Of a stretch of 64,000 nt of DNA, positions 5,156 to 47,361 are shown piece after piece (within the stretch, counting starts at the first letter, position 1; every line of letters starts with the position of its first letter). The DNA lies in contig LUYM01000006.1 in NCBI GenBank assembly GCA_001603275.1, positions 536,532-600,531 on the forward strand. The letters are read 5' to 3'. The position numbers and the translations under genes were made by a program. Source of the DNA: Actinomycetales bacterium Actino_02. GTDB taxonomy: Bacteria; Actinomycetota; Actinomycetes; Propionibacteriales; Propionibacteriaceae. Below the pieces are notes generated by a model. The model searched no databases. It was not told where the DNA came from and worked only from the letters and a program-made list of their open reading frames with translations.

Positions 5156-5256
5156 GGAAGGCGGGACTGTCCCCTGCATCTGCGGGACCTGCCGTGGTCT
5201 CGCCTAGCCAGGCAGACCAGTGTGGCCGGGCCGTGGGTCCGGCCACACCGATTCGG

Positions 5257-5514: not shown

Positions 5515-5634
5515 GCGATCCACGCTAGGTCGATCCCGCGCCTGCCGATATCGGGGGCCTCCACGACCTGACCCCAGCCGAACCATGGGTCGAGCCCGGT
5601 CTTTGGCAGTGGCTCGGCGTAGGCTTTGCGAGCC

Positions 5635-8040
5635 ATGCCTGATTCGATGCTGCCCAGTCTGTTCGACGACGCCTTTCCGCGACCGGCCGAGGCCACCTCA
5701 GCCCCGGCGGTGGCACCGGAACCCTCGCGGCGAGCAGTGGACGAAGCCGAGCTGCTCGCCGGACTGAACCCGCCGCAGCGCGAGGCAGTCCTGCACGCCG
5801 GATCACCGGTGCTGGTGGTGGCCGGCGCCGGCTCGGGCAAGACCCGGGTACTGACCCGACGGATCGCGCACCTGGTCAGCCAGCGGGGCGTCCATCCCGG
5901 CTCGATCCTGGCGATCACCTTCACCAATAAGGCGGCCGCCGAGATGCGGCACCGGGTGGTCGATCTGGTCGGTAATCGGGCCCGGATCATGTGGGTGTCC
6001 ACCTTCCACTCGGCCTGCGTGCGGATCCTGCGCAGCGACATCAACCGGTTCGGGATGAACCGGACGTTCTCGATCTACGACGACACCGACGCCAAGCGGC
6101 TGATGCAGCTGGTGCTGCGCGATGCCCAGGCCGACCCGAAGCGGTTCCCGCCGCGGGCGGTGCTCAACTGGGTGTCCAACAACAAGAACCAGCTGGTCGA
6201 TTTCGAGATGGCGCGGGCCCAGGCGTCCACCCCGAACGAAGAGGTGTACGCCGACGCCTACGCCGAGTATCAGCGGCGGCTGCGGGCGGCCAACGCGTTG
6301 GACTTCGACGACCTGATCATGACCACCGTGCACCTGCTGCAGTCCTTCCCGGATCTGCGCGAGCAGTACCGGCGCCGGTTCCGGCACGTCCTGGTGGACG
6401 AATACCAGGACACCAACCACGCTCAGTACGCGCTGATCCGCGAGCTGTGCGGTGTCCACCCGGCCGAGCCGGACGCCGTGCTGGTGGAACCGCCCGAACT
6501 GCTCGTCGTGGGCGACTCGGATCAGTCGATCTACGCCTTCCGGGGCGCCACTATCCGCAACATCCTCGACTTCGAGACCGACTTTCCCGGAGCCCGGACC
6601 ATCGTCCTGGAGCAAAACTATCGCTCCACCCAGAACATCCTCAGCGCAGCCAATGCGGTGATCACCCGCAATCCCGATCGTCCGGCTAAGCGGCTGTGGT
6701 CGCAGGCCGGCGATGGCGAGCTGCTGGTCGGCTACGTAGCCGACACCGAGCACGACGAAGCCCAGTTCGTCGCCGACGAGATCGACCGGCTCGCCGATGC
6801 CGGCCTGACCAAGCCCGGCCAAGTCGCGGTGTTCTACCGGACCAACGCCCAGTCGCGAGCCTTCGAGGAGGTGTTCATCCGGGTGGGGATGCCCTATCGC
6901 GTCGTCGGCGGGGTGCGCTTCTACGAGCGCAAGGAGATCCGGGACGCCATCTCCTACCTGCGGGCGATCGCCAACCCCGACGACGACGTGTCGGTGCGCC
7001 GGGTGCTGAACGTGCCCAAGCGGGGCATCGGCGACCGGGCCGAGGCCATGATCGAGGCCTTCGCCTCCAGTCACCAGCTCTCCTTCGGGGCGGCGCTGGA
7101 TCGTGCCGACGAGATCCCCGGGCTGGCGGCGCGCTCGCTCACCCAGGTGAAGCTGTTCGCCGGGCTGCTGGCCGAGCAGCGGGCCGCGGTAGCTGCCGGC
7201 GTCCCGGCCGACCAGATCCTGTCGTCGATCCTGCAGAGCTCCGGTTACACCGACGAGCTGACCGGATCGTCCGACCCGCAGGACGAGACCCGGCTGGAGA
7301 ACCTGGTCGAGCTGGTCAGCGTGGCGCAAGAGTTCGTCGCGGCCGCCCACGCCATCGACCTGCCGCCCGATGACAGCGAGCTGGCCGCGGCCGCCCCCGA
7401 GCCGGACGATTCGCTGCCGGCCTTCCTGGAACGGATCGCCCTGGTCGCCGACTCCGACCAGTTGCCCGACAACGACCCGGACGCGGCCGGCGTGGTCACC
7501 TTGATGACCCTGCACACTGCCAAGGGCCTGGAGTTCGACACGGTGTTTCTCACCGGCTTCGAAGAGGGGATCTTCCCGCACGAACGGGCCATGTTCGACA
7601 AGACCGAACTGGAGGAGGAGCGGCGGCTGGCCTACGTGGGAATCACCCGGGCTCGGCAACGGCTCTACCTGACTCGGGCCACCGTCCGCACGATGTGGGG
7701 CTCGCCGAAGTACAACCCGGCCAGCCGGTTCACCGACGAGATCCCCGAGTCGCTGATCGATTGGCGCCGGCTCGGTGTGGCCCGAACCAGCTTCGTCAGC
7801 AGTTCGGTGACCCGCCAGGCCGAAGCCAGACGTCCGAGCAGCCCATCGTTCGGGAAGTCGGCGCCGATCAAGACCGTTGCCGCGGTCGAGGTGGGGGATC
7901 GGGTGCTGCACACCACCTTCGGCCTAGGCTCGGTGATCGCCACCAGCGGGGTGGGCGATGCGGCCAAGGCGGACGTCGACTTCGGCTCGGCCGGAGTGAA
8001 GCGATTGTCGCTGAAGTATGCGCCGATGGAGAAGCTCTAG
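5635..8040 (+). CDS. pcrA: ATP-dependent DNA helicase PcrA/UvrD
   Basis: This is a superfamily 1A 3'-5' helicase for nucleotide excision repair, mismatch repair and clearing of stalled complexes. Visible motifs in order: Walker A AGAGSGKTRVL, motif Ia TFTNKAAAEM, Walker B VDEYQDTNHAQY, motif III GDSDQSIYAFRGA, the 2B-domain region, motif V TLHTAKGLEFDTVFL, and motif VI YVGITRARQRLYL. The C-terminus carries the Tudor-like RNA-polymerase-binding segment of PcrA (VGDRVLHTTFGLGSVIA). The length of about 800 residues fits actinobacterial PcrA. The ATG at 5635 is taken; TTG 5626 and ATG 5647 are alternatives and none has a strong ribosome site. The 3' end overlaps the convergent ROK gene by 4 bp. 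Confidence 0.95.
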   Translation: MPDSMLPSLFDDAFPRPAEATSAPAVAPEPSRRAVDEAELLAGLNPPQREAVLHAGSPVLVVAGAGSGKTRVLTRRIAHLVSQRGVHPGSILAITFTNKAAAEMRHRVVDLVGNRARIMWVSTFHSACVRILRSDINRFGMNRTFSIYDDTDAKRLMQLVLRDAQADPKRFPPRAVLNWVSNNKNQLVDFEMARAQASTPNEEVYADAYAEYQRRLRAANALDFDDLIMTTVHLLQSFPDLREQYRRRFRHVLVDEYQDTNHAQYALIRELCGVHPAEPDAVLVEPPELLVVGDSDQSIYAFRGATIRNILDFETDFPGARTIVLEQNYRSTQNILSAANAVITRNPDRPAKRLWSQAGDGELLVGYVADTEHDEAQFVADEIDRLADAGLTKPGQVAVFYRTNAQSRAFEEVFIRVGMPYRVVGGVRFYERKEIRDAISYLRAIANPDDDVSVRRVLNVPKRGIGDRAEAMIEAFASSHQLSFGAALDRADEIPGLAARSLTQVKLFAGLLAEQRAAVAAGVPADQILSSILQSSGYTDELTGSSDPQDETRLENLVELVSVAQEFVAAAHAIDLPPDDSELAAAAPEPDDSLPAFLERIALVADSDQLPDNDPDAAGVVTLMTLHTAKGLEFDTVFLTGFEEGIFPHERAMFDKTELEEERRLAYVGITRARQRLYLTRATVRTMWGSPKYNPASRFTDEIPESLIDWRRLGVARTSFVSSSVTRQAEARRPSSPSFGKSAPIKTVAAVEVGDRVLHTTFGLGSVIATSGVGDAAKADVDFGSAGVKRLSLKYAPMEKL

Positions 8041-9221
8041 TCCTCGCCGACCCAGGCACTCAGCGCTGCGGGGCTGAGTGCCTTGTCCAGGGCCAGTTCG
8101 ACAGCTCCGACGAGTGGACCGTCCTCGTTCAGCTCGGCATCGAGAACCGGCGGCGGGCAGCTGCGACGGTAGCTCATCAAGGCTTGGCTGAAGGCTTCCG
8201 CGAAATCGCCGGGGGCTAGTCGCCGCACGTCGGTGGCCAGACCGGAGATGGTGACCAGCTCGGGGTCCACGGCGTTGATCAGTCCGGCCAGGCCGCGACC
8301 TAGCGAAGCCGCCTGCGCCCGCAGCTCGGGTGCAGGGGCGTCCGGGCTTTGGGCGGCCAACCACTCTCGCACGGCGGTGACCTCCTGGACGGGGCCGGCC
8401 AGGTCCAAGGCCAGTTCGCGAGCCAGCGCGCGGGCGCCGAGTTCGACATCCCAGCAGCCGACCGCGCCACAGCTGCACCTGATCGGAGCACGACCGAAGG
8501 GGAGATGACCGTACTCGGCGCTGGCCCCGGTGGCGCCCAGGATCGGGTCGCCGTCTTGGCAGCTGCCGCCCCCGGCGCCGCTGAGCACCATCAGGTGGGT
8601 GCTGACCCGTGCCTGTCGGGCGGCGCCGCGACGCGCCTCGGCGACGCCGGCCAAGGTGGCGTCGTTGTTGCAGAGCAGTGGTCCGCCGGCACCGAGTGAG
8701 CTCAGCTCCACCTGCTGCCAGCCGAGCACCGCCGACTGAACCACCCGGGTGCCGGACAGAGTCCCGGCCAGGGAGACCGAGGTGGCGCTGATTCGGTGTC
8801 GATAGCGGCGGCGGTACCCGTTCAGGGTTGCTTCGACGGCGTCAAGAATCGAGGTGGGGGAGTAGTCGTCATGCGACCCGCCGTGGAGTTCGCCGAGCCG
8901 TCCGTCCACTCCGGCGACGGCGGTCCGCCAGCCGGTGGCGGTGATGTCGGCGGCCAGCACCAGCGGCCCGTCCGGATGGGGTAGCAGCTGAGTGCTCGGA
9001 CGGCCGCGTCCGGTCGGGGCGGCGGCGGTCTCGGTGATCAGCCGGCCGGCATCGAGCCGACTGATCAGGTCGGTCATCGTCCCTGAGCTCAGGTGCAGAC
9101 GCTTGGTCAGCTCGGCGCGGCTCGCCTCCGGCTCACCGCGATAGGCCTTCAGCACGTCCGCGGCCACCGACCAGCGCAGTTCTGCCTGACGGCGTCGGGC
9201 CGGAGGTCGCGAAGGAGCCAT
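8037..9221 (-). CDS. ROK-family transcriptional regulator
   Basis: This is a 394-residue ROK (repressor, ORF, kinase) protein. The N-terminal winged helix, about residues 10-70, contains SRAELTKRLHLSSGTMTDLI. The C-terminal sugar-kinase-like ROK domain has the zinc motif CSCGAVGCW and the preceding GHLPFG segment. Such proteins repress or activate sugar genes in response to sugars or sugar phosphates. It diverges from the MFS transporter gene across 41 bp, so the MFS gene is its most likely target. Its TAG stop is shared in reverse with the pcrA stop (CTAG). Confidence 0.92.
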   Translation of the reverse strand: MAPSRPPARRRQAELRWSVAADVLKAYRGEPEASRAELTKRLHLSSGTMTDLISRLDAGRLITETAAAPTGRGRPSTQLLPHPDGPLVLAADITATGWRTAVAGVDGRLGELHGGSHDDYSPTSILDAVEATLNGYRRRYRHRISATSVSLAGTLSGTRVVQSAVLGWQQVELSSLGAGGPLLCNNDATLAGVAEARRGAARQARVSTHLMVLSGAGGGSCQDGDPILGATGASAEYGHLPFGRAPIRCSCGAVGCWDVELGARALARELALDLAGPVQEVTAVREWLAAQSPDAPAPELRAQAASLGRGLAGLINAVDPELVTISGLATDVRRLAPGDFAEAFSQALMSYRRSCPPPVLDAELNEDGPLVGAVELALDKALSPAALSAWVGED

Positions 9222-9262
9222 GACCCGGATTATACTCGCTGGACGAGCTTAAGAATGGAGTC
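9222..9262. promoter_or_regulatory. Divergent promoter region between ROK regulator and MFS gene
   Basis: Forty-one bases separate the two divergent genes. A TATACT hexamer at 9231-9236 resembles a -10 box. A short inverted repeat, CTCG-ctgga-CGAG, lies next to it and could be the ROK operator. Both assignments rest on inspection only. Confidence 0.4.
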
Positions 9263-10462
9263 GTGGTGAGTCCCGAGGAAGCGGCTGCCGCCCCTGCTGG
9301 CGCCCCTGTGATGACACAGTTTCGGCGCGACGGTGCCACCTGGCTGATCTATCTGGTGTGGGCGGCGCTGGGCTTCGCCGTGAACGGCCTGGGGAGCGTC
9401 CTGCTGCCGCTGAAGGACGAGCTCGGCCTGACCACCGTCCAGACCAGCCTCTACTCGGCCTTCTTCGCCATCGGCTTGGTCCTCACCGGGATTGTCGGGC
9501 ATCGCCTGGTCGACGCAGTGGGACGGCATCGGCTGCTCCTGGTCGTCTTGGGTGTTGTCGGGGGCGGCGCGCTGGTGATGACCTTCGGCACGGTGGTAAC
9601 CACCTTCCTCGGTGCCGCCGGGATCGGCCTGGGCGCCGCACTGATGATTCAGGTGCTGCCGGTCGAGATGGTCAGCCTGCAGCCCGACCACGCGCCGCGC
9701 GCACTGTCCGAAGCCAACTCCCTGTCCAGCATCGCCGGCATGATCGCGCCCTTCGGGGTGGCCTGGGCGTTGGCGTCCGGCCTGGGCTGGAGCTTCGGCT
9801 ACACGATCCCGCTGGCCGTGGCCACCGGTCTGTCGGTGGTCGGCCTCCTGATCGCGCGACGCCGCAGCGATGCTGGGGTGGCCGATGACGTGACCGACGC
9901 GGCGCCGATCGCGACCGCGGTCGAGTCGCCGTGGCGGCCGTGGATCGAGATGGTCGGATCGGTAGCCGTAGAGTTCTGCTTCGTCCTGTGGTCGGCCACG
10001 GCGGTTGCGGCCTGGCATCACGTCGACATCTCGCTGGCCACTTTGATCGCCGGCTGTTTCCTGGTCGGCATGGGCGTGGGCCGCTTCGCCGGGGCCCCGC
10101 TGGCCGACCGTTTCGGCGTCCGCAACACCACCGTGGGTTGCCTGCTGCTCGCCCTGGTCGGATCGTTCGCCTTCTGGTTCGCCGGCGACCAATGGATCGC
10201 CGCCGGCGCATTGCTGATCGGCGGCTTGGGGGTCTCGCTGCTCTATCCGCTGACTCTCTCCCGGCTTCTGGCGGCCGATCCCGGCAACACCGACCGGGCT
10301 ACCTCCCGCAGTGCATTGGCCTCCGGGGTGGCGATCCTGAGCGTCCCGCCACTGCTGGCCGGCCTGGCTGACATCGTCGGCCTGCATCTGGCTTTTCTGG
10401 TGGCGCCGGTGATCCTGGTTGCTCTCATCGTGCGCAATCTGTGGGCCGGGCGGAGTCGGTGA
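9263..10462 (+). CDS. Major facilitator superfamily transporter
   Basis: This is a 399-residue secondary transporter with about twelve hydrophobic segments split by a polar central loop (ARRRSDAGVADDVTDAAPIAT, near 200). The A-motif-like GHRLVDAVGRHRL follows the second segment, and a second copy, GAPLADRFGVRNTT, follows the eighth, as in the MFS two-fold repeat. The GTG at 9263 is the track start; GTG 9266 fits the GGAG at 9255 better, and ATG 9311 is also possible. Divergent from the ROK regulator, it may import or export a sugar or a related small molecule. The substrate is not inferable. Confidence 0.88.
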   Translation: MVSPEEAAAAPAGAPVMTQFRRDGATWLIYLVWAALGFAVNGLGSVLLPLKDELGLTTVQTSLYSAFFAIGLVLTGIVGHRLVDAVGRHRLLLVVLGVVGGGALVMTFGTVVTTFLGAAGIGLGAALMIQVLPVEMVSLQPDHAPRALSEANSLSSIAGMIAPFGVAWALASGLGWSFGYTIPLAVATGLSVVGLLIARRRSDAGVADDVTDAAPIATAVESPWRPWIEMVGSVAVEFCFVLWSATAVAAWHHVDISLATLIAGCFLVGMGVGRFAGAPLADRFGVRNTTVGCLLLALVGSFAFWFAGDQWIAAGALLIGGLGVSLLYPLTLSRLLAADPGNTDRATSRSALASGVAILSVPPLLAGLADIVGLHLAFLVAPVILVALIVRNLWAGRSR

Positions 10463-35986: not shown

Positions 35987-36023
35987 CGGGCGAGGATAGC
36001 ATCGCGGCCGGACCGGTCAGCGC

Positions 36024-36836
36024 TCAGTTGCCGGCCTCCGGAGCCCGCAGCTTCGAGGAGCTCATGATCGCCACGAAGTGGCCGACCAGGGTCAGCGCGG
36101 CGAGCGGAGTGAGGATGGCCAGCAGCCCGATGGCTGCCGGCTGCTGCCCGGTGAACAGCCCGACGATCCCGGCCAGCAGGCACCAGAAGGTGAGCTCGAC
36201 CCAGTGGAACAGCCGATGAATCGGCACCAGGTTGGCCAGGTTGCGCAGTCGGCGCAGTCCCGACCGGGTCGGGGCGGACGCCTGCGGATCGTCCCTGATC
36301 ATGGTCAGCCCGTACTTGGTCCTGGCCACGTGAACCATCTCGTTGAGCACCTTGTTGTAGATCAGCAGCAGGCTGAGCAGGCCGCCCAGGGCCGCCCACT
36401 GCCACTGCGGCTGGCCGAGGGCGAAGGTGGCCCGCAGGCCGAGGAACAGCGGCACTAGGCCCTCGGCCGTGTAGTGGCCCACGGCGTCCAGGAAGATGCC
36501 CTTGGGGGAGGTCAGCTTGCGCCAGCGGGCCACCTCGCCGTCGGCGCAGTCGAGCAACAGCTGCACCTGGCCGAAGACGAAGCACAGCACCGGACCCCAC
36601 ACCCCGGGGATCAGCAGCGAACCGGCCGCAGCGAATGCGGCCACGGTCATCAGCCCGGTCACCTGGTTCGGGCTCATCCCCAGCTGGACGCAGGCTCGGG
36701 AGAGGTACGGCGAGACATGCCGCATCAACACCGGCCCGAGCCAGTGCTCGCTGTTGGCTCGGCCGAGGATCTCCGGCGGCTGGACGACCTGTCGGAACTC
36801 GCGAATGTTCGGGACGCCAGCGCTCTGGTTCGGCAT
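36024..36836 (-). CDS. CDP-alcohol phosphatidyltransferase family protein
   Basis: This 270-residue membrane enzyme condenses a CDP-alcohol with a second alcohol. The signature runs Asp96, Asp99-Gly100, Ala103-Arg104, Gly113 and Asp117, but the last catalytic Asp expected at 121 is His (LDAVGHY). Six hydrophobic segments surround it. ATG 36836 starts the recognisable sequence (MPNQSAGVPN). Downstream on the same strand is a glycosyltransferase; the pair likely works on a phospholipid or phosphate-linked glycan. Product unknown. Confidence 0.82.
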   Translation of the reverse strand: MPNQSAGVPNIREFRQVVQPPEILGRANSEHWLGPVLMRHVSPYLSRACVQLGMSPNQVTGLMTVAAFAAAGSLLIPGVWGPVLCFVFGQVQLLLDCADGEVARWRKLTSPKGIFLDAVGHYTAEGLVPLFLGLRATFALGQPQWQWAALGGLLSLLLIYNKVLNEMVHVARTKYGLTMIRDDPQASAPTRSGLRRLRNLANLVPIHRLFHWVELTFWCLLAGIVGLFTGQQPAAIGLLAILTPLAALTLVGHFVAIMSSSKLRAPEAGN

Positions 36837-36938
36837 GGCGGCATTATGCCAGCGCGCCCGGTCCCAGCTCCGGCCGGGTCGGCGAGGCCCACTCGGTAGA
36901 ATCCACGCCGTGAGTCCGTCACCTGCCCTGGCCCTGGC

Positions 36939-38261
36939 ATGAGTTCGACCTTTGGCGATATCGCCCTGATTGCGCTGTTCATCGTGATCGGTGGCGTCTT
37001 CGCGGCCGCAGAGATGGCGCTGGTCTCGCTGCGCGAGTCGCAGATCCGCCAACTCAGCGGACGCGGCCAGCGCGGACGCACCGTGGCGAATCTGACCGCC
37101 GACCCGAACCGCTTCCTCTCTGCAGTGCAGATCGGCGTCACCCTGGCCGGCTTCCTTTCCGCCGCCTTCGGTGGCGCCACTCTGGCCGACGCGCTGGCCG
37201 GCTGGCTGACCGGGCTGGGCCTTGCCTCTCCGGTGGCCGGACCGCTCAGCCTGGTGCTGGTGACGCTGGCGATCTCCTACTTCTCCATCGTCTTGGGCGA
37301 GTTGGCCGCCAAACGGCTGGCCATGCAGCGCGCCGAGGCGTTTGCGCTGGCCCTGGCCCCACTGGTCAGCGCCATCGCGTGGCTGGCCACGCCGGTGATC
37401 TGGTTCCTGGGCAAGTCCACCGACCTGGTCGTCCGGGTATTCGGCGGCGACCCCAAGGCCGGCCGCGAAGAAGTCACCGACGAAGAGTTGCGGGCCATGG
37501 TCGGCTCCTCGGCCACCCTGGGTGACGAGGAGCGGCAGATCGTCGACGAGGTGTTTGCGGCCGGCGAGGTGAGCCTGCGCGAGGCGATGGTTCCGCGCAC
37601 CGAGGTCGACTTCCTGGACGGCGACCTGACCGTGCACCAGGCCTATCTCGAGGTGCAGCAGGCGACCCACAGCCGCTATCCGGTGATCGGCGAGGACTCC
37701 GACGATGTGCTCGGCTTCGTCCACATCCGCGACCTGGCTGTGCTGGATCCGCAGCTGCGCAAGCAGCCGGTGCGGGATCTGGTGCGTCCGGTGATGTCGC
37801 TGCCGCAGTCGGTCAGGATCCTGCGGGCACTGTCGGAGATGCGGCAGAACAAGCAGCACCTGGTGATCGTCCGCGACGAGTACGGCGGCACCGCGGGCAT
37901 CGTCACCATCGAGGATCTGGTCGAGGAGCTGATCGGCGACATCACCGACGAGTTCGACGCCGAAGCCGAGCCCACCCGCAGCGGACGTGACCGGGCCGAA
38001 CTCGACGGTCTGATGACTCTGCAGGACTTCGCCGACGAGTTCGGCTACGTCCTGCCCGAAGGCCCCTACGACACGGCGGCCGGTTTCCTGATGGCCCAGC
38101 TCGGCGCCTTGCCGGAGCTCGGCGACTCCTGCCAGGTCGTCCTGGAACCGGTCGAGGAGGGGGTGGCCGCCACCTTCGAGCTGACCGTCACCGAACTCGA
38201 CGGACGCCGCGCCGCAAGACTCCGACTCGTCAATCTCGGACCACAGCCCGCCGCCGAGTAG
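36939..38261 (+). CDS. CNNM/CBS/CorC-HlyC family membrane protein
   Basis: This 440-residue member of the family formerly called hemolysin C or CorC has a CNNM (DUF21) domain with four membrane segments at 1-195 (FAAAEMALVSLRESQIRQL is characteristic). A CBS pair follows at about 215-335 (MVPRTEVDFLD; IVRDEYGGTAGIVTIEDLVE), and a CorC_HlyC domain at about 350-435. It is linked to Mg/Co efflux or homeostasis. The ATG at 36939 overlaps the intergenic end of the divergent CDP-alcohol gene's promoter. There is no evidence for toxin function despite the old name. Confidence 0.93.
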   Translation: MSSTFGDIALIALFIVIGGVFAAAEMALVSLRESQIRQLSGRGQRGRTVANLTADPNRFLSAVQIGVTLAGFLSAAFGGATLADALAGWLTGLGLASPVAGPLSLVLVTLAISYFSIVLGELAAKRLAMQRAEAFALALAPLVSAIAWLATPVIWFLGKSTDLVVRVFGGDPKAGREEVTDEELRAMVGSSATLGDEERQIVDEVFAAGEVSLREAMVPRTEVDFLDGDLTVHQAYLEVQQATHSRYPVIGEDSDDVLGFVHIRDLAVLDPQLRKQPVRDLVRPVMSLPQSVRILRALSEMRQNKQHLVIVRDEYGGTAGIVTIEDLVEELIGDITDEFDAEAEPTRSGRDRAELDGLMTLQDFADEFGYVLPEGPYDTAAGFLMAQLGALPELGDSCQVVLEPVEEGVAATFELTVTELDGRRAARLRLVNLGPQPAAE

Positions 38262-38291
38262 TCTTCTGCCGTCACGACGAGGAGGTGGGGC

Positions 38292-39512
38292 GTGTCGATC
38301 GCCGACCCGGATGGTGCGGTGCTGCTCACTTCCGATGAGGTTGGACCGCTGCTGAGCGCTGCGGTGAGCCATGCCGGCGGCGAGCTGGTGTCCTGGTCGC
38401 TGGACCACGTGGACGCCAATCCGTCCCAATCCACCACCGCGACCTACTCCGCCTTGATCGACTGGCCCTATGGCCGCCGCGAGGAGCTGCTCGGCGTCAG
38501 CGCCCGCGCTTCCGGTCCGGCCGACACCGATACCGCCGCCGAGATCTTCGGTGATGGCCGTCGCGAGGTCGCCGTCTGGATCTACCCGCAGGATCCGGAT
38601 CTGCCCGGGCTGGCCCGCGCCGCCTATGCCGAGTCGATGGCCGAGGTCTGCAACAGTCATCAGGTCTTCTCCGCACCGGTCAGTCCGGCCGATCTGCAGC
38701 TGCAGATGATCGGCTACCGGCCGCGCCGCCGGGCGGTGGTCAAGGTCGATCGGACGGCCACCGGCGAGGTCGTCTACGTCAAGGTGCTGCGCGCGAAGCT
38801 GCTCGACGAGGTGGTCGGCCGGCATCGGCTGCTGGCCGCCGGCGGGGTACCGGTCGCCCCGATCGCCGCCGTCACCGAGGATCATCTGCTGATCCTGCGT
38901 GAGTTATCCGGGGTCTCCTTGGCCAAGGCCATCTTCGATCCGGTGGATCCGTGCACGGCCGAGTCGCTGATCGATCTGCTTGACCGGATGCCGTCCACGG
39001 TCTCGTCGCTGACCAGGCGTCCGCCCTGGTCGGACGCGGTGGACCACTATGCCCGGGTGGTCTCCCAGGCGATGCCGTCGCTGGAGCCGAAGCTGAACTG
39101 GCTGGTCGAGGTGATCCAGTCCGGGCTGGCCCCGATCCCGGTCGGCAGTGAGCCGACCCACGGCGACTTCCACGAGGGTCAGGTGCACGTGCAGGGCGGA
39201 CGGATCTGCGGCCTGTTGGACACCGACACGATCGGTCCGGGGCGCCGTGCCGATGATCTGGCCTGCCTGGTCGCGCATCTGTCGACGATTCAGCGGATGA
39301 ATGCCGCGCAGGAGGCTCGCGTTCACCAGCTGATTCGTACCTGGGTGCCGGTCTTCGACACCCGAGTCGACCCCACTGAGCTGCGGCTGCGCTCGGCTGC
39401 GGTGATCATCTCGCTGGCCACCGGGCCGTTCCGCGGCCAGGAGCCGGACTGGGAGCGGGAGACCGCGGCTATGATCGGCTCGGCCGAGGCGCTGGTTCGC
39501 CAGGTTCGCTAG
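38292..39512 (+). CDS. APH-like phosphotransferase
   Basis: This protein has 406 residues. The C-terminal half has the aminoglycoside-phosphotransferase/choline-kinase catalytic loop THGDFHEGQVHV, with Gln where Asn is common, and the metal Asp in GLLDTDTIGPGRRADDLA. The N-terminal half is less clear and may hold a degenerate nucleotide-binding lobe (VYVKVLRAK). Small-molecule kinase activity is likely; substrate unknown. Its GTG start has AGGAGG just upstream. The SAHH-like gene starts 40 bp on, so co-transcription is possible. Confidence 0.83.
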   Translation: MSIADPDGAVLLTSDEVGPLLSAAVSHAGGELVSWSLDHVDANPSQSTTATYSALIDWPYGRREELLGVSARASGPADTDTAAEIFGDGRREVAVWIYPQDPDLPGLARAAYAESMAEVCNSHQVFSAPVSPADLQLQMIGYRPRRRAVVKVDRTATGEVVYVKVLRAKLLDEVVGRHRLLAAGGVPVAPIAAVTEDHLLILRELSGVSLAKAIFDPVDPCTAESLIDLLDRMPSTVSSLTRRPPWSDAVDHYARVVSQAMPSLEPKLNWLVEVIQSGLAPIPVGSEPTHGDFHEGQVHVQGGRICGLLDTDTIGPGRRADDLACLVAHLSTIQRMNAAQEARVHQLIRTWVPVFDTRVDPTELRLRSAAVIISLATGPFRGQEPDWERETAAMIGSAEALVRQVR

Positions 39513-39552
39513 CTGCGCCGTCGGCGGCGCTTGCTTGTACGGTGTGCACGTG

Positions 39553-40923
39553 GTGACCTCTGAGCTGGGCTGGGCCGAGCTGGTGCTGCGGCGCTACGCC
39601 AGGCAGACCAACCAATTGCTGGCCGGACGCAGCTTCGCCGTCCCCGGCGCGGGGCCGCGGGCCGCCGCCCTACAGCTGGCCCTGACCCGAATCGGCGCTC
39701 AGCTGGTCGCGGCCGACGACCCGCGCGCGGCGGCGGTCTTCGCCGCCGATGCCCCGGAGGTCGACTTCGCCGGGAGCCGGGACACTGCCGCCGAGCGGAT
39801 CGACTATGCCGCAGCCCGGATGCCGGCGGTGATTGCCGCGGGCCGGCGACTGGCCGCGTCCGGAAAGCTGGCCGGGTTGCGAGTCGGGCTCTCCCTGGTG
39901 CTGGAGCCCAAGACCGCGGTGCTGGCGCTCGCGCTGCAGGGCGCGGGCGCCCAGGTGAGCCTGCTCGGGCGCTGGGCCGAGACCGACCAGGCCGTCGCCG
40001 CCGAACTGGCTCGCCGCGGCCTCACCCTCTTCGCCACCGACGACCAGAGCCAGGACGATGCGCTGGCCGACGCCTTCCTGAGGCAACGGCTGCACATCCT
40101 GCTGGACGATGGCTCGCGGCTGATCCGAATGCTGCTCGAGCGTCCCGACGATGCTGCCGACCTGATCGGCGCGGCAGAGGAAACCACCAGCGGATTGTGG
40201 GGGCTGGAAGGGCACTCGCTGCCGTTCCCGGTGATCGCTGTAAACGACGCCGGCTCCAAGCTGTGGTTCGACAATGCCCACGGCACCGGCCAGTCGTGCC
40301 TGTTCACGATCGCCGATCTGGTCGCGCCCGAGGCTGCCTGGCTGCAGGGCCGGGTCGTGGCGCTGGCCGGTTTCGGCGCGGTCGGTGAGGGCTTCGCTCG
40401 GCATGCCGCCGCGCTGGGCGCCGACGTCCGGGTCGCCGAGATTGATCCGCGAGCCGAGCTGCGGGCCCGTTTCGCGGGCTTCGTCACCGGTTCACTGACC
40501 GAACTGGCCGCTCAGGCAGACCTGATCGTGTCGGCCACCGGGCGGGCAGGAACGATTGGCGTGGACGTCATGGAGGCCGCGGCCGACGGGGCTGTCCTAG
40601 CCGTGGCAGGCGGAGTGGATGGCGAGGTAAATCTGGCCGGAGCGTTGGCGGACGGCTGGCAGCTGGACGAGGTCGCACCGAAGATCGCCGATCTCGTCAA
40701 GGACGGACGCCGACTGCGGCTGCTGGATCGTGGCGAGTGCATCAACTGCACGGCGGGGGAGGGCAACCCGATCGAGATCATGGATCTGTCGCTGGCCGTC
40801 CAGGCTTCTGCGGTGGAGTACCTCCTGGAGGCCGACCTCGCCCCCGGGCTGATCGATTTGCCGCTGGCCGCCGACCAGCGAGTGGCGCGCACCGCACTGG
40901 AGCATTGGGAGGAGCCTCGATGA
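39553..40923 (+). CDS. Divergent S-adenosyl-L-homocysteine hydrolase-like protein
   Basis: It has 456 residues. The catalytic core is like SAHH: EETTSGLWGLE, NDAGSKLWFDN (the Asn, Lys and Asp of human N181/K186/D190 are all kept), and the NAD loop VVALAGFGAVGEGFA. The substrate-side HPSF motif of normal SAHH is missing (GEGNPIEIMDLSL instead), and the C-terminal KPDxYRY tail is absent. It is therefore probably not the housekeeping enzyme and may act on a modified substrate such as S-inosylhomocysteine. Start uncertain: GTG 39553 taken; TTG 39535 and GTG 39550 are alternatives. It overlaps the amidohydrolase gene by 4 bp. Confidence 0.72.
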   Translation: MTSELGWAELVLRRYARQTNQLLAGRSFAVPGAGPRAAALQLALTRIGAQLVAADDPRAAAVFAADAPEVDFAGSRDTAAERIDYAAARMPAVIAAGRRLAASGKLAGLRVGLSLVLEPKTAVLALALQGAGAQVSLLGRWAETDQAVAAELARRGLTLFATDDQSQDDALADAFLRQRLHILLDDGSRLIRMLLERPDDAADLIGAAEETTSGLWGLEGHSLPFPVIAVNDAGSKLWFDNAHGTGQSCLFTIADLVAPEAAWLQGRVVALAGFGAVGEGFARHAAALGADVRVAEIDPRAELRARFAGFVTGSLTELAAQADLIVSATGRAGTIGVDVMEAAADGAVLAVAGGVDGEVNLAGALADGWQLDEVAPKIADLVKDGRRLRLLDRGECINCTAGEGNPIEIMDLSLAVQASAVEYLLEADLAPGLIDLPLAADQRVARTALEHWEEPR

Positions 40924-42233
40924 GCGAGGTGGTGGTCTATTCCGCCGACGTGATCGTCCCGGTCACCGCACCGGCCGTCCGCCACGGGGCGGTCGCCGTG
41001 GCCGAGGGGCGGATCCTGCACCTGGGCACTCGGGATTGGGTGCTATCGGTGCTGGAGGGACACCCCGACGTCCGTGAGGTCCACTGGCCCGGCGTTCTGC
41101 TGCCCGGCCTGATCAACGCGCACACCCACCTGCAGTACACCCGGATGGCCGAGGTGGGGCTGCGCCAATACCACGGCTTCGACGATTGGGGGCAGGCCTT
41201 CGACGCGGCCTACTCCGTCGACGGCCATCGCTGGGACCAGGCGGCGGCCGAGGGAGCCAAGCTCTCCATCGCAGCGGGCGTCACCGGCCTTGCCGATGTG
41301 GTCACCGACCTGCCCGCGGTCAGCGCGCTGCACGATCACGGGCTGCGCGGGGTCGCCTACTGGGAGATCTACGGCTGGGCCAACGAACGCTGGCGTCGCG
41401 AGGGGGCCCGGATCGAGGCCGAACTCGACCAGGTGCCGACCCCGCCGGCTCGCGGGGTCTCGCCGCACGCCCCGTACTCTCTCGACGTCGAACCGCTGCT
41501 CGATCTGCCCGACCTGGCCCGCCGCCGCGGTGCCCGGCTGCACATTCATCTGGGCGAGTCGAAGCTGGAGGAGTTGCATCCCAGCGCGGCCCGCGACGAC
41601 GCCTGGCGCACCGTGGACGCCGAGAGCTACCGCGCTTTGCGCCGGGACGGCTTCGACGCCAGTGCCACCGACTTCGTCGACCAGCTCGGCGTGCTCGGCC
41701 CGGACTGCCATATCGCCCACGGCGTCTACCTGAATGCGCACGACCGGGCCGTGCTGCGAGCTCGGATGACCGCGGTCGCCCTGTGCCCGCGCTCCAATGC
41801 GGTGATCGGGTTGGACGAGCCGCCGGTCGCCGCCTACCTCAACGAGGGCAACCTGATCGCGGTCGGCACCGACTCGCTGGCCTCGTCCCCGTCTCTGGAC
41901 TTGTTGGCTGACGTCGCCGAACTGCACCGACTCGCGCTGCGCCAGGGCTACACCGAGCCGGATCTGGCCAATCGGCTGCTCCGGGCCGCCACCCTGGGTG
42001 GTGCCGTGGCGCTGGGCATGTCGACCGGCCCGGATCGAGTGGGCCAGTTGCAGGTCGGCTCGCTGGCGGATCTGGTCTTCGTGGACGTCCCGGCCGGCGG
42101 CGTCCACGATGCGATCGAGAACGTCGTCCGCGACGGTGCCGGACGAGTGGCCGCCACGCTGCTCGGCGGCGCGCTGGCTGCCTCGACTCCGGCCTGGACC
42201 GCCCAGGCCGGTCAATCGAAGGGAATCGCATGA
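40920..42233 (+). CDS. Amidohydrolase, SAH/MTA or aminodeoxyfutalosine deaminase-like
   Basis: This metal-dependent hydrolase of 437 residues has all ligands expected of the MtaD/TrzA/MqnX group: HxH at His68/His70 (NAHTHL), His183 in SPHAPYSL, His210 and Glu213 in HLGES, His267 in AHGVYL, and Asp318 in GTDSLAS. Adenine-type deamination is the family norm. The ATG overlaps the SAHH-like stop (ATGA), so the two are coupled; the cupin follows with another 4-bp overlap. The pairing suggests deamination of S-adenosylhomocysteine before cleavage, but a futalosine-pathway role or other nucleoside is not excluded. Confidence 0.8.
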   Translation: MSEVVVYSADVIVPVTAPAVRHGAVAVAEGRILHLGTRDWVLSVLEGHPDVREVHWPGVLLPGLINAHTHLQYTRMAEVGLRQYHGFDDWGQAFDAAYSVDGHRWDQAAAEGAKLSIAAGVTGLADVVTDLPAVSALHDHGLRGVAYWEIYGWANERWRREGARIEAELDQVPTPPARGVSPHAPYSLDVEPLLDLPDLARRRGARLHIHLGESKLEELHPSAARDDAWRTVDAESYRALRRDGFDASATDFVDQLGVLGPDCHIAHGVYLNAHDRAVLRARMTAVALCPRSNAVIGLDEPPVAAYLNEGNLIAVGTDSLASSPSLDLLADVAELHRLALRQGYTEPDLANRLLRAATLGGAVALGMSTGPDRVGQLQVGSLADLVFVDVPAGGVHDAIENVVRDGAGRVAATLLGGALAASTPAWTAQAGQSKGIA

Positions 42234-42649
42234 CCATCCCTGAACGCGCCGCGGCTCTGGGCATGGAGCCGCACCCCGAAGGTGGCTGGTTCGTCCGCAC
42301 CTGGACCTCGACCGAGCGAATCGCCACCCAGGGCGGGCCGCGACCGGCCGCCACCTTGATCCACTACCTGCTCGAGGCCGGCGAGGCCTCGTCCTGGCAT
42401 CTGGTCAGCTCCGACGAGGTCTGGCTGTGGCACGGTCCGGGCAGTCTCGACCTGCAGCTGGGCGGGAGTGGACCTGCTCCCGAGGAGGGGCTGCTGCAGC
42501 GCCTGGGCGGCGGCGCGGACGAGCTGGCGCAGGTCTTGGTGCCGGCCGGCACCTGGCAGCGCAGTCTGCCCGCGGCCAAAGAGGTTCTGGTGAGTTGCCT
42601 GGTCAGCCCCGGTTTCGACTACGCAGACTGGACCTTGCTCGAGGGCTGA
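42230..42649 (+). CDS. Cupin, DUF985 (cupin_5) family
   Basis: This small beta-barrel protein has 139 residues. The family marks are HPEGGWFVRTW near the start, TLIHYLLEAGEASSWHLVSSDEVW in the middle (split here as TLIHYLLE and SSWHLV...EVW), and VLVSCLVSPGFDYADW at the end. Metal or ligand binding by the two His is possible. It is translationally coupled to the amidohydrolase, which suggests a shared pathway. Function unknown. Confidence 0.88.
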   Translation: MTIPERAAALGMEPHPEGGWFVRTWTSTERIATQGGPRPAATLIHYLLEAGEASSWHLVSSDEVWLWHGPGSLDLQLGGSGPAPEEGLLQRLGGGADELAQVLVPAGTWQRSLPAAKEVLVSCLVSPGFDYADWTLLEG

Positions 42650-42766
42650 GGGCGTCCGGCTGACGGCCACGTGCGTACGTCTGTGCACAGGACCCGTACG
42701 CTTTCCTCGCTCAGCCAGCCGGACAAGGACGTGCGGCCGCATCACCTAAGAAAGGACAAGGGGACC

Positions 42767-43666
42767 ATGACTCGGTATCTCACACGTGTCGTTGCCGCCG
42801 CCGCATCCGCGGCATTCGCGCTTGGCCTCGCGGCCTGTTCGACGGGAGTGGCCGCGTCCACCTCGCCTTCGAGCTCGCCGGCCGCCAGCGAGTCGACCAG
42901 TGCCAGCGCCACCCCGACAGCCGTCGACGTGAAGACGCTGACCGTCACTCCGGGCAAGCTCACCATCGCCACCGGCAAGCCGGCCTACTCACCGTGGGTC
43001 GAGGACGACAAGCCCGAAAGCGGTAAGGGCTTCGAGGCTGCGGTGGCCTACGCGGTCGCTGAGAAGCTCGGCTTCGCCAAGGAGGACGTGGTCTGGAAGC
43101 GGACCACCTTCGACGAGGCCATCGCTCCCGGACCGAAGGCGTGGGACTTCAACCTGCAGCAGTACTCGATCACCGACGAGCGCAAGAAGGCCGTCGACTT
43201 CTCCAGCTCGTACTACACCACCTCGCAGGCGGTACTGACCTACGCCGGTTCGCCGGCCGAGAAGGCCACCTCGATCGCCGATCTGAAGTCGGTGAAGTTC
43301 GGTGTGGCGATCGGCACTACCAGCCAGAAGGCGCTGACCACGATCATCGCCCCGACCAGCCAGCCGAAGATCTTCAACTCCAACGACGACCTGGTTCAGG
43401 CGCTGAAGAGCAAGCAGATCGAGGCGCTGGTGGTCGACCTGCCGACCGCCCTGTACCTGGCTGCAGCCGAGATCGACAACGGCAAGATCGTCGGCCAGCT
43501 GGCCGACACCTCCGGCGGCGACCAGTTCGGCCTGGTGCTGGCCAAGGGCTCCAAGCTCACTGAGCCGGTCACGGCCGCCGTGGACGCCCTCAAGGCCGAC
43601 GGCACCCTGGCAGCCCTGGAGAAGCAGTGGCTGTCGGACTCGATCAAGGTTCCGGTTCTTCAGTAA
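42767..43666 (+). CDS. Amino-acid ABC transporter solute-binding lipoprotein
   Basis: This 299-residue extracytoplasmic binding protein (family 3) has a signal peptide with lipobox LAAC (Cys24), followed by a Ser/Ala-rich linker and the binding domain (TIATGKPAYSPWVEDDK ... FNLQQYSITDERKKAVDFS), typical of polar amino acids. ATG 42767 follows AAGGAC; the frame opens earlier without similarity. First gene of a three-gene importer. Confidence 0.92.
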   Translation: MTRYLTRVVAAAASAAFALGLAACSTGVAASTSPSSSPAASESTSASATPTAVDVKTLTVTPGKLTIATGKPAYSPWVEDDKPESGKGFEAAVAYAVAEKLGFAKEDVVWKRTTFDEAIAPGPKAWDFNLQQYSITDERKKAVDFSSSYYTTSQAVLTYAGSPAEKATSIADLKSVKFGVAIGTTSQKALTTIIAPTSQPKIFNSNDDLVQALKSKQIEALVVDLPTALYLAAAEIDNGKIVGQLADTSGGDQFGLVLAKGSKLTEPVTAAVDALKADGTLAALEKQWLSDSIKVPVLQ

Positions 43667-43669
43667 CAC

Positions 43670-44557
43670 GTGACCACCACTTCAGCTGTGTCGGGGGCAG
43701 GCGCTGAGGCCCTGCCCCCGATCAGCGCACTCGAACTCGATCGGCGGCGCTACCGCCGCAACCGCACCGGACAGTCGGTGCTGATCAGCCTGGTCAGCAC
43801 GGCCGTGGTGGCGGTGATCATCTGGCAGTTTCTGATCCACTCGCCGGGCTGGAAGGTCACTCAAGAGACCTTCTTCAGCCCCGAGTACTTCATGGCGGCG
43901 CTCCCGCTGGTCTGGGACGGCCTGCTGTTGAACATGCGGGTGCTGGTCTTCGCGGTGATCGGGGTGGCGATCTGGGCGACCATCCTGGCCGGACTGCGCA
44001 GCTTGCGCGGACCGATCTTCTTCCCGCTGCGGATGCTGGCCTCCGGCTACACCGACCTCTTCCGGGGGATGCCCTTCCTGATCGTGCTCTACCTGATCGG
44101 GCTCGGCATTCCGGCATTGGGGCTGACCGACCAGATCATCCCGGTCGAACTGCTGGGCACCGTGGCTTTGGTGCTGACCTACTCCTCCTATGTGGCCGAG
44201 GTGCTGCGGGCCGGCATCGAGGCCGTCCATCCGTCCCAGCGGCTGGCGGCACGTTCGCTGGGGCTGAGTCACTACGGCACCCTGCGCCTGGTGGTGCTGC
44301 CGCAGGCGGTCCGCAAGGTGACCCCCGCGCTGATGAACGACTTCATCTCCATGCAGAAGGACGTCGGACTGATCTCGGTGCTGGGGGCGGTGGACGCCGT
44401 CCGGCAGGCCCAGATACAGGTGGCCATGACCTACAACTACACCGCCTATGTGGTGGCCGGGCTGATGTTCGTGGCCTTCAGTTGGCCGTTCATTCGGTTC
44501 ACCGACTGGCTGACCGCTCGGCAGCAAGCCCGCGAGCAGATCGGGGGGTTGGTCTGA
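43670..44557 (+). CDS. Amino-acid ABC transporter permease
   Basis: This HisM/GlnP-type permease of 295 residues has five or six membrane segments and the EAA loop EAVHPSQRLAARSLGLSHYG followed by LPQAVRKVTPALMNDF. A positively charged N-terminus (DRRRYRRNRTGQS) precedes the first segment. GTG 43670 lies 3 bp after the binding-protein stop. It is the only permease here, so it probably forms a homodimer. The stop shares one base with the ATPase start. Confidence 0.92.
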   Translation: MTTTSAVSGAGAEALPPISALELDRRRYRRNRTGQSVLISLVSTAVVAVIIWQFLIHSPGWKVTQETFFSPEYFMAALPLVWDGLLLNMRVLVFAVIGVAIWATILAGLRSLRGPIFFPLRMLASGYTDLFRGMPFLIVLYLIGLGIPALGLTDQIIPVELLGTVALVLTYSSYVAEVLRAGIEAVHPSQRLAARSLGLSHYGTLRLVVLPQAVRKVTPALMNDFISMQKDVGLISVLGAVDAVRQAQIQVAMTYNYTAYVVAGLMFVAFSWPFIRFTDWLTARQQAREQIGGLV

Positions 44558-45294
44558 TGAGCCAACCGGTGCTCGAGATGCGCGGCATCGTGAAGGTCTA
44601 CGGCAATCATCCGGTGCTGCGCGGGGTCGACCTGGCCGTCCGCAAGCACGAGGTGGTGGTGCTGATCGGAGCCTCCGGTTCGGGAAAGTCGACGCTGCTG
44701 AAGACTGCGAACCTGCTGGAGCGGATCGACGACGGCCAGATCTTCCTGTCCGGAACCGACATCAGCGATCCCCGAGTGAAGGCGGACGCCGTCCGAGCCC
44801 GGATCGGGGTGGTGTTCCAGCACTACAACCTGTTCCCGCACCTGTCGGTGCTGGACAACGTCACTCTGGCGTTGCGCAAGGTCCACGGCGTGAGCAAGGA
44901 CGAGGCCGCCGAACGCGGACGGGCGGTGCTGGCCCGGATCGGCCTGGCCGATCGTGGTTCGTCCTTCCCGGATCGGCTCTCCGGTGGCCAGCAGCAGCGG
45001 GTGGCCATTGCCCGGGCGATCGCCACCGACCCCGAGCTGCTGTTGCTCGACGAGATCACCAGCGCGCTGGATCCGATGCTGGTCGGTGAGGTGCTGGACC
45101 TGGTCGGTGAGTTGAAGGCGGGCGGCTCGACGATTCTGATGGCCACCCACGAGATGGATTTCGCCAGTCAGGTGGCTGACCGGGTGGTGTTCCTCTCCGG
45201 TGGCCGGGTCATCGAAGAGGGCCCGGCGGCCCAGGTGCTCGGCGCACCCCAGCAGCCCGAGACGATCGAGTTCCTCAGCCGCACGATGCGCTGA
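44557..45294 (+). CDS. Amino-acid ABC transporter ATP-binding protein
   Basis: This 245-residue ATPase has Walker A GASGSGKSTLLK, Q-loop VFQHYNLFPHLSV, signature LSGGQQQRVAIARA, Walker B LLLDEITSALD, and H-loop ATHEM. The GlnQ/HisP-type length and the pairing with a one-permease importer fit polar amino acids. The ATG overlaps the permease stop by 1 bp (TGATG). A 59-bp inverted repeat follows 12 bp after its stop. Confidence 0.95.
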   Translation: MSQPVLEMRGIVKVYGNHPVLRGVDLAVRKHEVVVLIGASGSGKSTLLKTANLLERIDDGQIFLSGTDISDPRVKADAVRARIGVVFQHYNLFPHLSVLDNVTLALRKVHGVSKDEAAERGRAVLARIGLADRGSSFPDRLSGGQQQRVAIARAIATDPELLLLDEITSALDPMLVGEVLDLVGELKAGGSTILMATHEMDFASQVADRVVFLSGGRVIEEGPAAQVLGAPQQPETIEFLSRTMR

Positions 45295-45306
45295 TCAGTC
45301 CCAGAC

Positions 45307-45365
45307 AAGTCGCAAGGTGGACAGTTCCTCGCCGTCTGGGCGAGAGAGTGTCCACTTTGCGACTT
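45307..45365. repeat. Two-stem inverted repeat between the ABC operon and mutA
   Basis: AAGTCGCAAGGTGGACA (45307-45323) pairs with TGTCCACTTTGCGACTT (45349-45365), 17 bases with one mismatch. An inner stem CTCGCC (45328-45333) / GGCGAG (45339-45344) sits within. It can end the ABC transcript but looks more like a repetitive palindrome. The remaining 145 bp to mutA must hold its promoter; I saw no cobalamin riboswitch there. Confidence 0.65.
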
Positions 45366-45510
45366 TTCGGGGCGAGTGAGGGCGGCCAGTCGGTGGCCGG
45401 ACGTGCAGGGTAGGAGTGCTGCGTCCAACATATGAGCGACCTCTTGCGGTGCGCATTCCGAAATGGTTCGACCATAAGGCTGGGCCGGTCCGGGGAGATA
45501 TGGTGAACTC

Positions 45511-47361
45511 ATGACCGACACGCCGTTGCTTCTTGCCGGCGACTTCGCCACTCCCTCCGCAGCTGATTGGGAGGTTGAGGTCCTCAAGGTCCTCAACCGG
45601 CGGCGTCCAGAAGGCACAGAACTCACCGTTGAGCAGGCGATGGCCCGACTCCGCACCACCACAGCGGACGGGCTTCGCATCGAGCCTCTCTATACCGAAT
45701 CCGACATCCCGCTGGGACACCCCGGAGTAATGCCGTTCACCCGCGGCACCATGACCAAGACCAGTCCGGCCACCGGCTGGGACGTCCGTCAGCTCCATGA
45801 GGATCCTGATGTGGCCTACACCAAGGCTCAGATCCTGGCTGACCTCGAGCGCGGCGCCACCTCGGTGTGGCTGCGGCTCGGCTCGGACGCCATCGCGCCG
45901 TCCGACCTGGCCGCCGTGCTCGACGAGGTCGATCCCAACCTGGCCCCGATCTCGGTGAGCAGCATCGAAGATCAGGTGGCTGCAGCGAAGGCGCTGGCCG
46001 ACTTCCTGACGGCCAAGGGTGCCCACCACGCCGCCGGTAGCTTCGGCCTGGACGCGCTGGGCGCGGCCGCTCGCACCGGTGCTGCCGCCGACCTCGGCCC
46101 GCAGGCCGAATGGGTGGCCAAGGCCCTGGCCGAGTTCCCGGGCGTCCGGGCACTCACCGTGGACGCGCTGCCCTACGACGACGCCGGAGCCGGCGACATC
46201 GATCAGCTTGCGTTCGCCATCGCCACCGGCGTGGCCTACCTGCGCGACCTGGAAGCCGCCGGGATCTCCCCGGAGAAGGCCTTCGGCCAGTTCGCCTTCC
46301 GGGTCAGCGCCAACACTGACCAGTTCACCACCATCGCCCGGCTGCGCGCGCTGCGCCGCCTGTGGGCGCGGGTCGGCGAGGTCAGTGGCGTCCCGGCGAA
46401 TGCCCGCGGCGCTGTTCAGCACGCGGTCACCAGCTGGCGGATGATCACCCGCGACGATCCGTGGGTCAACCTGCTCCGCGGCACGATCGCCACCTTCGCC
46501 GCCGCCGTCGGCGGTGCCGAGATCGTCACCACGCTGCCCTTCGACACCGCCTGGGGTCTGCCGGACGAGTTCAGCCGCCGGATGGCGCGCAACACTCAGC
46601 TGGTCGCCGCAGAGGAGTCCAACATCGGACGGGTCACCGACCCGGCCGGCGGCTCCTGGTACGTCGAGCAGCTCACCGATCAGCTGGCCAACAAGGCCTG
46701 GGCGACCTTCGTCGAGATCGAGGCCGCCGGTGGCATGGTCGCCGCGCTGTCCTCGGGCCTGGTCGCCGACAAGATCGCCGGCGTCAGCGCCGAGCGGGCC
46801 AAGCGGCTGTCCACCCGCAAGCTGCCGCTGACCGGCGTCAGCATGTTCCCCAAGGCCGACGAAGAGCCGGTCAAGGCCAAGCCGCGTCCGACCGCTCCGG
46901 CACGGGCCGGGCTGGCCCCGCACCGCGACGCCGAGGTCTTCGAGGCGCTCCGGGATCGGGCCGCTGCCGCTGCCAGCAAGCCGGAAGTCTTCCTGGCCTG
47001 CCTGGGTGCGCGTCGCGACTTCGGTGGCCGGGAGACCTTCACCGCAGCCCTGCTCGGCGTCGGTGGCATCGCCACCCCGTCCAGCGAGGGTGGAACGCCC
47101 GAGGAGATCGCCGCCAAGGCGTCCGCCGCGGGTGCCAAGTTCGCGATCCTGTGCTCCTCGGCCAAGGTCTACGCCGACCAGGCGGTCCCGGTGGCTCGGG
47201 CGCTGAAGGAGGCCGGTGTGGGCACCGTCTACATCGCCGGACGCAAGAAGGAGACCGCAGCCGATGACGTCGATGACGTGATCGACGGCGAGGTCTTCGA
47301 CGGGATGGATGTGGTCGCCTTCCTTGGCGAGGCCATGGACCGGATGGGAGTTGCCAAATGA
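45511..47361 (+). CDS. mutA: Methylmalonyl-CoA mutase small (beta) subunit
   Basis: This non-catalytic partner of MutB in the adenosylcobalamin-dependent conversion of succinyl-CoA and methylmalonyl-CoA has 616 residues. The TIM-barrel part shows [10 protein letters not shown] and the C-terminal B12-like domain lacks the DxHxxG cobalt motif, as expected for the small subunit. The known Propionibacterium freudenreichii protein is of similar length (about 640). ATG 45511. The stop overlaps mutB by 4 bp. Confidence 0.95.

Follow-up and report, generated by a model that had tools for sequence, protein, structure and literature searches.

Introduction

Few enzymes have been studied as well as S-adenosylhomocysteine hydrolase (SAHH), and some of its homologues prefer another substrate or carry out a changed reaction. 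Enzymes with the motif HxExK prefer S-inosylhomocysteine, and the lysine of the motif contacts the hypoxanthine oxygen at C6 (PMC10978960). The SAHH homologue AgmF, an angustmycin dehydratase, loses its activity with each of the substitutions H56A, D129A, K184A, D188A and H299A (PMC8599513). Here we describe an operon whose first gene encodes an SAHH-like protein with a histidine at neither of the two corresponding catalytic positions. The operon lies in a 64,000-nucleotide stretch of DNA (the window) from Actinomycetales bacterium Actino_02 (contig LUYM01000006.1, positions 536,532 to 600,531). Judged by its sequence, it appears to encode a new and conserved SAHH variant of the S-inosylhomocysteine type that combines altered catalytic residues with dedicated uptake. 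Our preferred reading, which we hold at slightly less than an even chance, is that the operon would scavenge an adenosyl amino acid from outside the cell, with S-adenosylhomocysteine (SAH) as the most likely candidate, by import, deamination and subsequent splitting of the C5′-S bond.

The closest described counterparts are the S-inosyl-L-homocysteine hydrolases and archaeal-type SAHHs of Methanococcus, Pyrococcus and Thermotoga. The window protein shares with them the same fold (template modelling score about 0.85), the E-x-K pair and the residues for redox chemistry with nicotinamide adenine dinucleotide (NAD), and S-inosylhomocysteine hydrolase systems also have a deaminase partner. However, the window protein lacks His55 and the gate residues His298 and Phe299, carries N406 in place of the GHP histidine, and has both an N-terminal remnant domain and a linkage to an importer. 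Canonical SAHH (AhcY) has homologous domains and the same NAD site, but the window protein has neither the HxTxE motif nor the C-terminal tail of AhcY, and its score against the AhcY equivalog model TIGR00936 is 223.5 bits, below the cut-off of 497.6. AgmF is a precedent for a changed reaction, but it needs both histidines whereas the window family has neither.

All metal and catalytic ligands of the amidohydrolase are shared with the methylthioadenosine (MTA)/SAH deaminases and DadD of the amidohydrolase superfamily, although the window protein scores under every NCBIfam equivalog cut-off and has motifs of its own. The binding protein has the SBP_bac_3 fold and the Arg and Asp ligands of polar-amino-acid ATP-binding cassette (ABC) importers of the GlnH/FliY type, but differs from these in its own pocket and in its linkage to nucleoside enzymes. 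The cupin shares PF06172 and the HPEGG glutamate with Cff1/YML079w, and is encoded together with the SAHH-like and deaminase genes. No transport-linked SAH uptake system turned up in the papers searched, and literature searches with the gene set, the names of energy-coupling factor (ECF) S components and SAH uptake did not find this system described.

Results and discussion

A six-gene operon with a conserved order

A first-pass annotation, made from the letters of the window, had recognised three genes joined by 4-bp overlaps, and these are real. All window features described here lie on the forward (+) strand. The genes encode the SAHH-like protein P0001 of the His-less family (39550..40923; 457 amino acids; Pfam PF00670 at 74.7 bits and PF05221 at 51.3 bits), the amidohydrolase P0002, a predicted adenine-nucleoside deaminase (40920..42233; PF01979 at 113 bits), and P0003, a DUF985/Cupin_5 protein of the Cff1/YML079w family (42230..42649; PF06172 at 125 bits against a cut-off of 25), the last as the first-pass annotation had named it. 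The three are co-directional, with an ATGA overlap at each junction. P0001 begins with the GTG at 39550, a second GTG at 39553 being the start that had been chosen before, and P0002 and P0003 both begin with ATG.

The operon continues beyond the cupin gene. After a gap of 117 bases follow genes for a solute-binding protein of a polar-amino-acid-type ABC importer (42767..43666; PF00497 (SBP_bac_3) at 75.3 bits), an ABC permease of the polar-amino-acid HEQRo type with three transmembrane segments (43670..44557) and an ABC ATPase (44557..45294), the latter two recognised by family matches and all three by conserved order. With the importer genes (42767-45294), the operon consists of six genes reaching 45294 and is larger than the three-gene unit first proposed. 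Its genes are annotated piecemeal as ordinary genes.

Related loci were collected by scanning GTDB genomes for matches to the SAHH-like protein, using patterns that included the peptide EGNPIEIM. The resulting 80 actinobacterial loci span Actinomycetaceae, Propionibacteriaceae, Microbacteriaceae, Demequinaceae and other families, and are not independent, since many come from Microbacterium and Curtobacterium. The amidohydrolase gene adjoins the SAHH-like gene in all 80, a grouping beyond chance. The SAHH-like, amidohydrolase, cupin, binding-protein, permease and ATPase genes occur in this exact order and in one direction in 58 loci. The cupin is encoded in 69/80. Ten of the 80 loci (from Mycobacteriaceae, Nocardia, Nonomuraea, Rhizohabitans, Cryobacterium and Rathayibacter) carry, instead of the ABC importer, an ECF importer made up of fused ATPases, an S component and a T component, whose genes are placed between the SAHH-like and amidohydrolase genes. 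Few genomes of the order to which the window genome belongs have the system (3 of 198, the window's own counted). When 397 genomes from the whole phylum were surveyed with DNA patterns, one further locus came to light, in genome G444.

The SAHH-like protein keeps redox and base-recognition residues but lacks both histidines

The predicted structure of P0001 has a mean predicted local distance difference test (pLDDT) score of 93.9, and its top matches in the PDB are SAHH and S-inosylhomocysteine hydrolase structures. Residue equivalences were taken from an alignment to Pyrococcus SAHH (7r37), and conservation was evaluated over 83 family members. This alignment confirms the initial description of a protein that keeps the catalytic Asn, Lys and Asp and the NAD loop while losing the HPSF motif and the C-terminal tail. 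Both E119 and K121 of the HxExK motif (Pyrococcus E57 and K59) and the NAD redox set K237, D241 and N242 (Pyrococcus K183, D187 and N188) are found in 83/83 members. D187 (Pyrococcus D128) and E210/E211 (Pyrococcus E152/E153) are likewise invariant, and the NAD-binding GxGxxG is present. The invariance of these residues suggests that the protein retains both NAD redox and chemistry at C4′.

Three features of the protein had escaped the first-pass annotation, namely the replacement of the catalytic and gate histidines and about 75 N-terminal residues that lie outside the SAHH catalytic domain. The segment V117-L-E119-P-K121 (39898..39912) corresponds to an HxExK motif without its catalytic histidine, and this VLEPK likewise differs from the base motif HxTxE/Q of canonical SAHH. 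The position of His55 is V117 in the window protein, and V, T, F, I or M across the family. The gate histidine (Pyrococcus furiosus H298) is replaced by G355 (40612..40614), a glycine in 83/83 members, and the gate Phe299 by V356. No member has a histidine at either catalytic position, and both glycines are invariant. In addition, N406 (40765..40767) replaces the histidine of GHP, such that the protein reads GEGNP where SAHH has xxGHP(S/A), and the chain stops just past the helix aligned to P. furiosus position 417. The conservation of N406 is biased by the EGNPIEIM search pattern, whereas V117, E119, K121 and G355 lie outside every pattern used. When this conservation is set against the AgmF mutants and the data on HxExK enzymes, it appears that the family retains the half of the site for redox chemistry and the half for base recognition, and that the residues serving the 5′ leaving group and water are lost.

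A homologue found without patterns on a plasmid of Rubrobacter radiotolerans (locus L093, 7947-9212) shows P and G in place of the two histidines, within PIEAKTA and GGVD, and keeps GHP. By its residues it appears intermediate between the intact and His-less forms. Neighbouring genes encode a HAD hydrolase and a member of the bile acid:sodium symporter family.

A single clade that appears to have lost its partner

The His-less proteins fall into a single clade (100/100) of a maximum-likelihood tree, and this clade groups with the archaeal/S-inosylhomocysteine-type enzymes, apart from canonical SAHH. P0001 therefore falls outside housekeeping SAHH, the point that the first-pass annotation had left to a tree, and the clade appears to have sprung from S-inosylhomocysteine-type hydrolases.

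Two distant loci carry a tandem, one (L087) on a plasmid of Roseateles sp. XES5 and the other the G444 locus (L096), which comes from another class of the phylum. In both, a gene for an SAHH with all its histidines is followed by a His-less one, together with amidohydrolase and importer genes. The two intact tandem copies group together (100/100) and thus represent one paralogue. This arrangement bears on whether the His-less protein could be a non-catalytic NAD- and nucleoside-binding subunit or a sensor, with the intact paralogue doing the chemistry in some species. The loss of two catalytic residues would suit such a role as well. However, most of the actinobacteria have lost the intact paralogue, while the His-less protein keeps every redox residue, and we regard a purely non-catalytic function as improbable.

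Mycobacterium, Nocardia, Cryobacterium and Rathayibacter carry, in place of the intact paralogue, an open reading frame (ORF) of 184-271 amino acids just upstream. A profile of this ORF aligns over 107 columns with the NAD domain of SAHH (E 1.3e-10). SAHHs are the best PDB matches to its sequence (E 8e-8) and also the top fold matches of its model. The N-terminal extension of P0001 (residues 1-78, about 75 residues; 39550..39783; pLDDT 75-96) belongs to the same picture, as the fused N-termini match by hhalign the stand-alone ORFs (8.8e-13), the SAHH NAD domain (E=7e-8) and the NAD domain of their own family (4e-5). Origin by internal duplication is less likely, given that the NAD domain of intact SAHHs fits better than the family's own. 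The extension is a probable decayed remnant of the cofactor domain from the lost SAHH paralogue. We read the intact twin, the lone cofactor domain and the fused half-domain as a stepwise decay series, and such a graded series would be a case of partner-subunit decay. That the extension holds the oligomer together is a guess.

In Nonomuraea gerenzanensis (L088, about 7219-10146), a canonical SAHH gene is directly followed by a second one of archaeal type with intact histidines, and adjacent second copies of this kind are found in two other Streptosporangiales genomes.

Housekeeping SAH disposal is already covered in the host genomes

The first-pass annotation had proposed that the operon may, like some archaea, deaminate SAH to S-inosylhomocysteine and then split it, or act on another adenosyl thioether, with the upstream kinase possibly taking part. 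Read as an alternative housekeeping route, this would lead internal SAH by way of S-inosylhomocysteine to inosine, as in Methanocaldococcus, and serve turnover of the methyl cycle. The branch shared with S-inosylhomocysteine hydrolases and the adjacent deaminase partner speak for this version. Deamination before cleavage, which it entails, does fit the data, since the invariant E-x-K prefers hypoxanthine and a deaminase-type amidohydrolase is always adjacent.

The housekeeping role itself fares less well. A normal SAHH, whose presence elsewhere in the genome had been flagged as a question, does exist: a different contig of the window genome (3.05 Mb, 31 contigs) carries a separate gene for canonical SAHH at full length, which scores 461 bits, whereas fragments of the copy in the window score 31 and 21 bits in the same search. 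Canonical SAHH occurs in 14 of 24 hosts examined, nine of the ten hosts without it have LuxS, and phosphorylases or nucleosidases of the PNP/MTAN type are present in 25/25 genomes. This distribution indicates that SAH disposal is already covered and that the operon is additional to either route. Replacement of housekeeping SAHH was considered and ruled out, because the operon co-occurs with genomes that have the canonical enzyme and with genomes that lack it. Moreover, the importer within the operon points to scavenging, the kinase is absent from relatives, and the catalytic histidine pair is missing, which together make the internal route unlikely. The comparison with the archaeal pathway thus stands as regards the branch of the tree, while a plain repeat of that pathway is doubtful, given the missing histidines and the importer.

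Amidohydrolase, cupin and importer

The full metal-ligand set attributed to the second gene is borne out, as H68, H70, H210, E213, H267 and D318 are at least 98% conserved among 85 homologues. The family also has its own conserved motifs, CPRSN and GTDSLxSxPSLD. The nearest solved structures are 4dyk and 4gbd, the latter of which we take to be the Pseudomonas MTA deaminase PA3170, and the MTA/SAH deaminase 4f0r is also among the matches. We predict that the enzyme deaminates adenine nucleosides.

HPEGG is conserved among the operon cupins, and its glutamate presumably corresponds to E44 of Cff1. The yeast DUF985 protein Cff1, with its Glu44, is needed for formation of 4-hydroxy-5-methylfuran-3-one (MHF), a breakdown product of 4,5-dihydroxy-2,3-pentanedione (DPD) (PMC8092285). 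The operon gives DUF985 cupins a candidate pathway context, the yeast member being needed for an autoinducer 2 (AI-2) mimic.

In the binding protein, R139 (62/62) and D224 (60/62) align with the GlnBP arginine and aspartate for the alpha-carboxylate and alpha-amino groups. In proteins of the GlnBP type, these residues hold an alpha-amino acid. Their retention makes SAH, or else a different adenosyl amino acid, the probable cargo, and the rest of the pocket is the family's own (W77, W110 and QQF/Y at 131-133). In the Roseateles operon the same enzymes are accompanied by a sugar-type ABC importer and by an additional inosine-uridine nucleoside hydrolase. Since two unrelated importer types, and the sugar-type one of Roseateles, have been swapped around the same enzymes, we argue that substrate import is integral to what the system does. 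The importers also bear on whether the genes serve to make a nucleoside natural product, a setting in which SAHH homologues such as AgmF are known to act. The transporters are importers rather than exporters, tailoring enzymes are absent, and the genes occur broadly in plain heterotrophs, all of which renders a biosynthetic cluster very improbable.

A proposed scavenging pathway

From gene content, gene order, motifs, phylogeny and importer class, we infer the substrate, the order of steps, the lyase chemistry and the role of the cupin in the scavenging route. The ABC importer, or the ECF importer in other lineages, would bring SAH or a similar compound into the cell, where the amidohydrolase would convert the adenine to hypoxanthine and thereby SAH to S-inosylhomocysteine. 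The SAHH-like protein with bound NAD+ would then oxidise the 3′-hydroxyl and remove the C4′ proton, and the sulfur amino acid would leave C5′. As neither of the 5′-serving histidines is left, we suspect that this split is lyase-like rather than hydrolytic. With water addition weak or absent, the protein would act as a thioether lyase, and the product after re-reduction would be 4′,5′-didehydro-5′-deoxyinosine. Removal of the base by general nucleosidases would yield 5-deoxy-pentos-4-ulose (C5H8O4). This compound is an isomer of DPD, which would suit an isomerase, and the cupin may rearrange the deoxy-sugar. This widespread clade poses a testable question, namely whether the SAHH fold can stop at elimination.

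A more specific form of this scheme makes the His-less enzyme a homocysteine lyase acting on S-inosylhomocysteine, after which the DUF985 cupin would isomerise 5-deoxy-pentosulose to compounds of the DPD/MHF type. We consider this full sequence rather unlikely. If true, it would mean that enzymes can lead from SAH to AI-2-like molecules independently of LuxS, and the bacterial Cff1 family would gain a role.

Several observations weigh against the scavenging of an adenosyl amino acid. The catalytic activity of the SAHH-like family is a prediction, and with both histidines lost the proteins may catalyse another reaction or none. The amidohydrolase stays below the curated NCBIfam deaminase equivalog cut-offs (86 versus 522 bits, and 52 versus 779 bits) and is scored about equally by the 8-oxoguanine deaminase model, such that its substrate is predicted from the gene context. 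Some lineages lack the cupin, and given its sugar-type importer, the Roseateles cargo may contain no amino acid.

Some of the same observations would be accommodated if the operon served to break down a different imported nucleoside, for example a natural product or a modified adenine nucleoside, with the SAHH-like protein using 3′-oxidation to drive a dehydration, an epimerisation or a base elimination instead of cleaving a C-S bond. Loss of both 5′-serving histidines is in keeping with such a reaction, AgmF demonstrates that the fold is able to change reaction, and the Roseateles sugar importer and nucleoside hydrolase also speak for it. SAHH-like proteins also occur in nucleoside-catabolic clusters of Vibrio (L090) and Salinibacterium (L098). 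However, the amino-acid ligands are conserved in the main importer type and the E-x-K pocket of the S-inosylhomocysteine enzymes is strictly retained. Overall, this alternative seems possible but less probable than the scavenging of SAH or a related amino acid.

The Vibrio nigripulchritudo cluster, on a conjugative plasmid (7043-14269), encodes a protein with HIEPKTA in which the Asp of FDN is changed to Glu, alongside a nucleoside hydrolase, an adenosine deaminase, a ribokinase, a DeoR regulator and a NupC transporter. In Salinibacterium sp. SWN167 (35-9882), a second SAHH-like protein (6842-8020) has MHLEPKTA and GHFD, and the Lys and Asp of KxxxFDN are altered, the segment reading DDNPLTVINEN. 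Its neighbours, named from their sequences, are nucleoside ABC permeases, a cytidine deaminase, a thymidine phosphorylase, a nucleoside hydrolase, an IclR regulator and an adenosine deaminase. This protein appears to represent a distinct SAHH-like clade in nucleoside catabolism.

Flanking sequences and variant loci

An APH-like kinase gene (38292..39512) precedes the operon. Its participation had been thought possible, but the gene is missing from 80/80 related loci and we place it outside the system. A terminator-like hairpin at 39515-39530, between the kinase and SAHH-like genes, is not above chance, and a promoter and terminator scan gave no signal exceeding shuffled sequences. Riboswitch control was not found, as Rfam returned no matches at E<=1 within 36000-46000 of the window, and a riboswitch search of 11 related loci yielded tRNA only.

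A locus from the window's genus (genome G196; L097, 5049-10849) has the same enzymes with the ABC importer genes on the opposite strand. Its SAHH-like protein is unusually diverged, with IVEPKTS and the longest branch in the clade. The ECF version of the operon in Mycolicibacterium porcinum (L033, 2779-13286) lies directly downstream of genes for a type 2A encapsulin (SrpI-like) and a class V aminotransferase that is cysteine desulfurase-like, and a luciferase-like monooxygenase gene follows the cluster. The same upstream gene clusters recur at the Mycobacteriaceae loci L031 and L067, and a sulfur theme or a link to sulfur storage is possible at the Mycobacterium locus.

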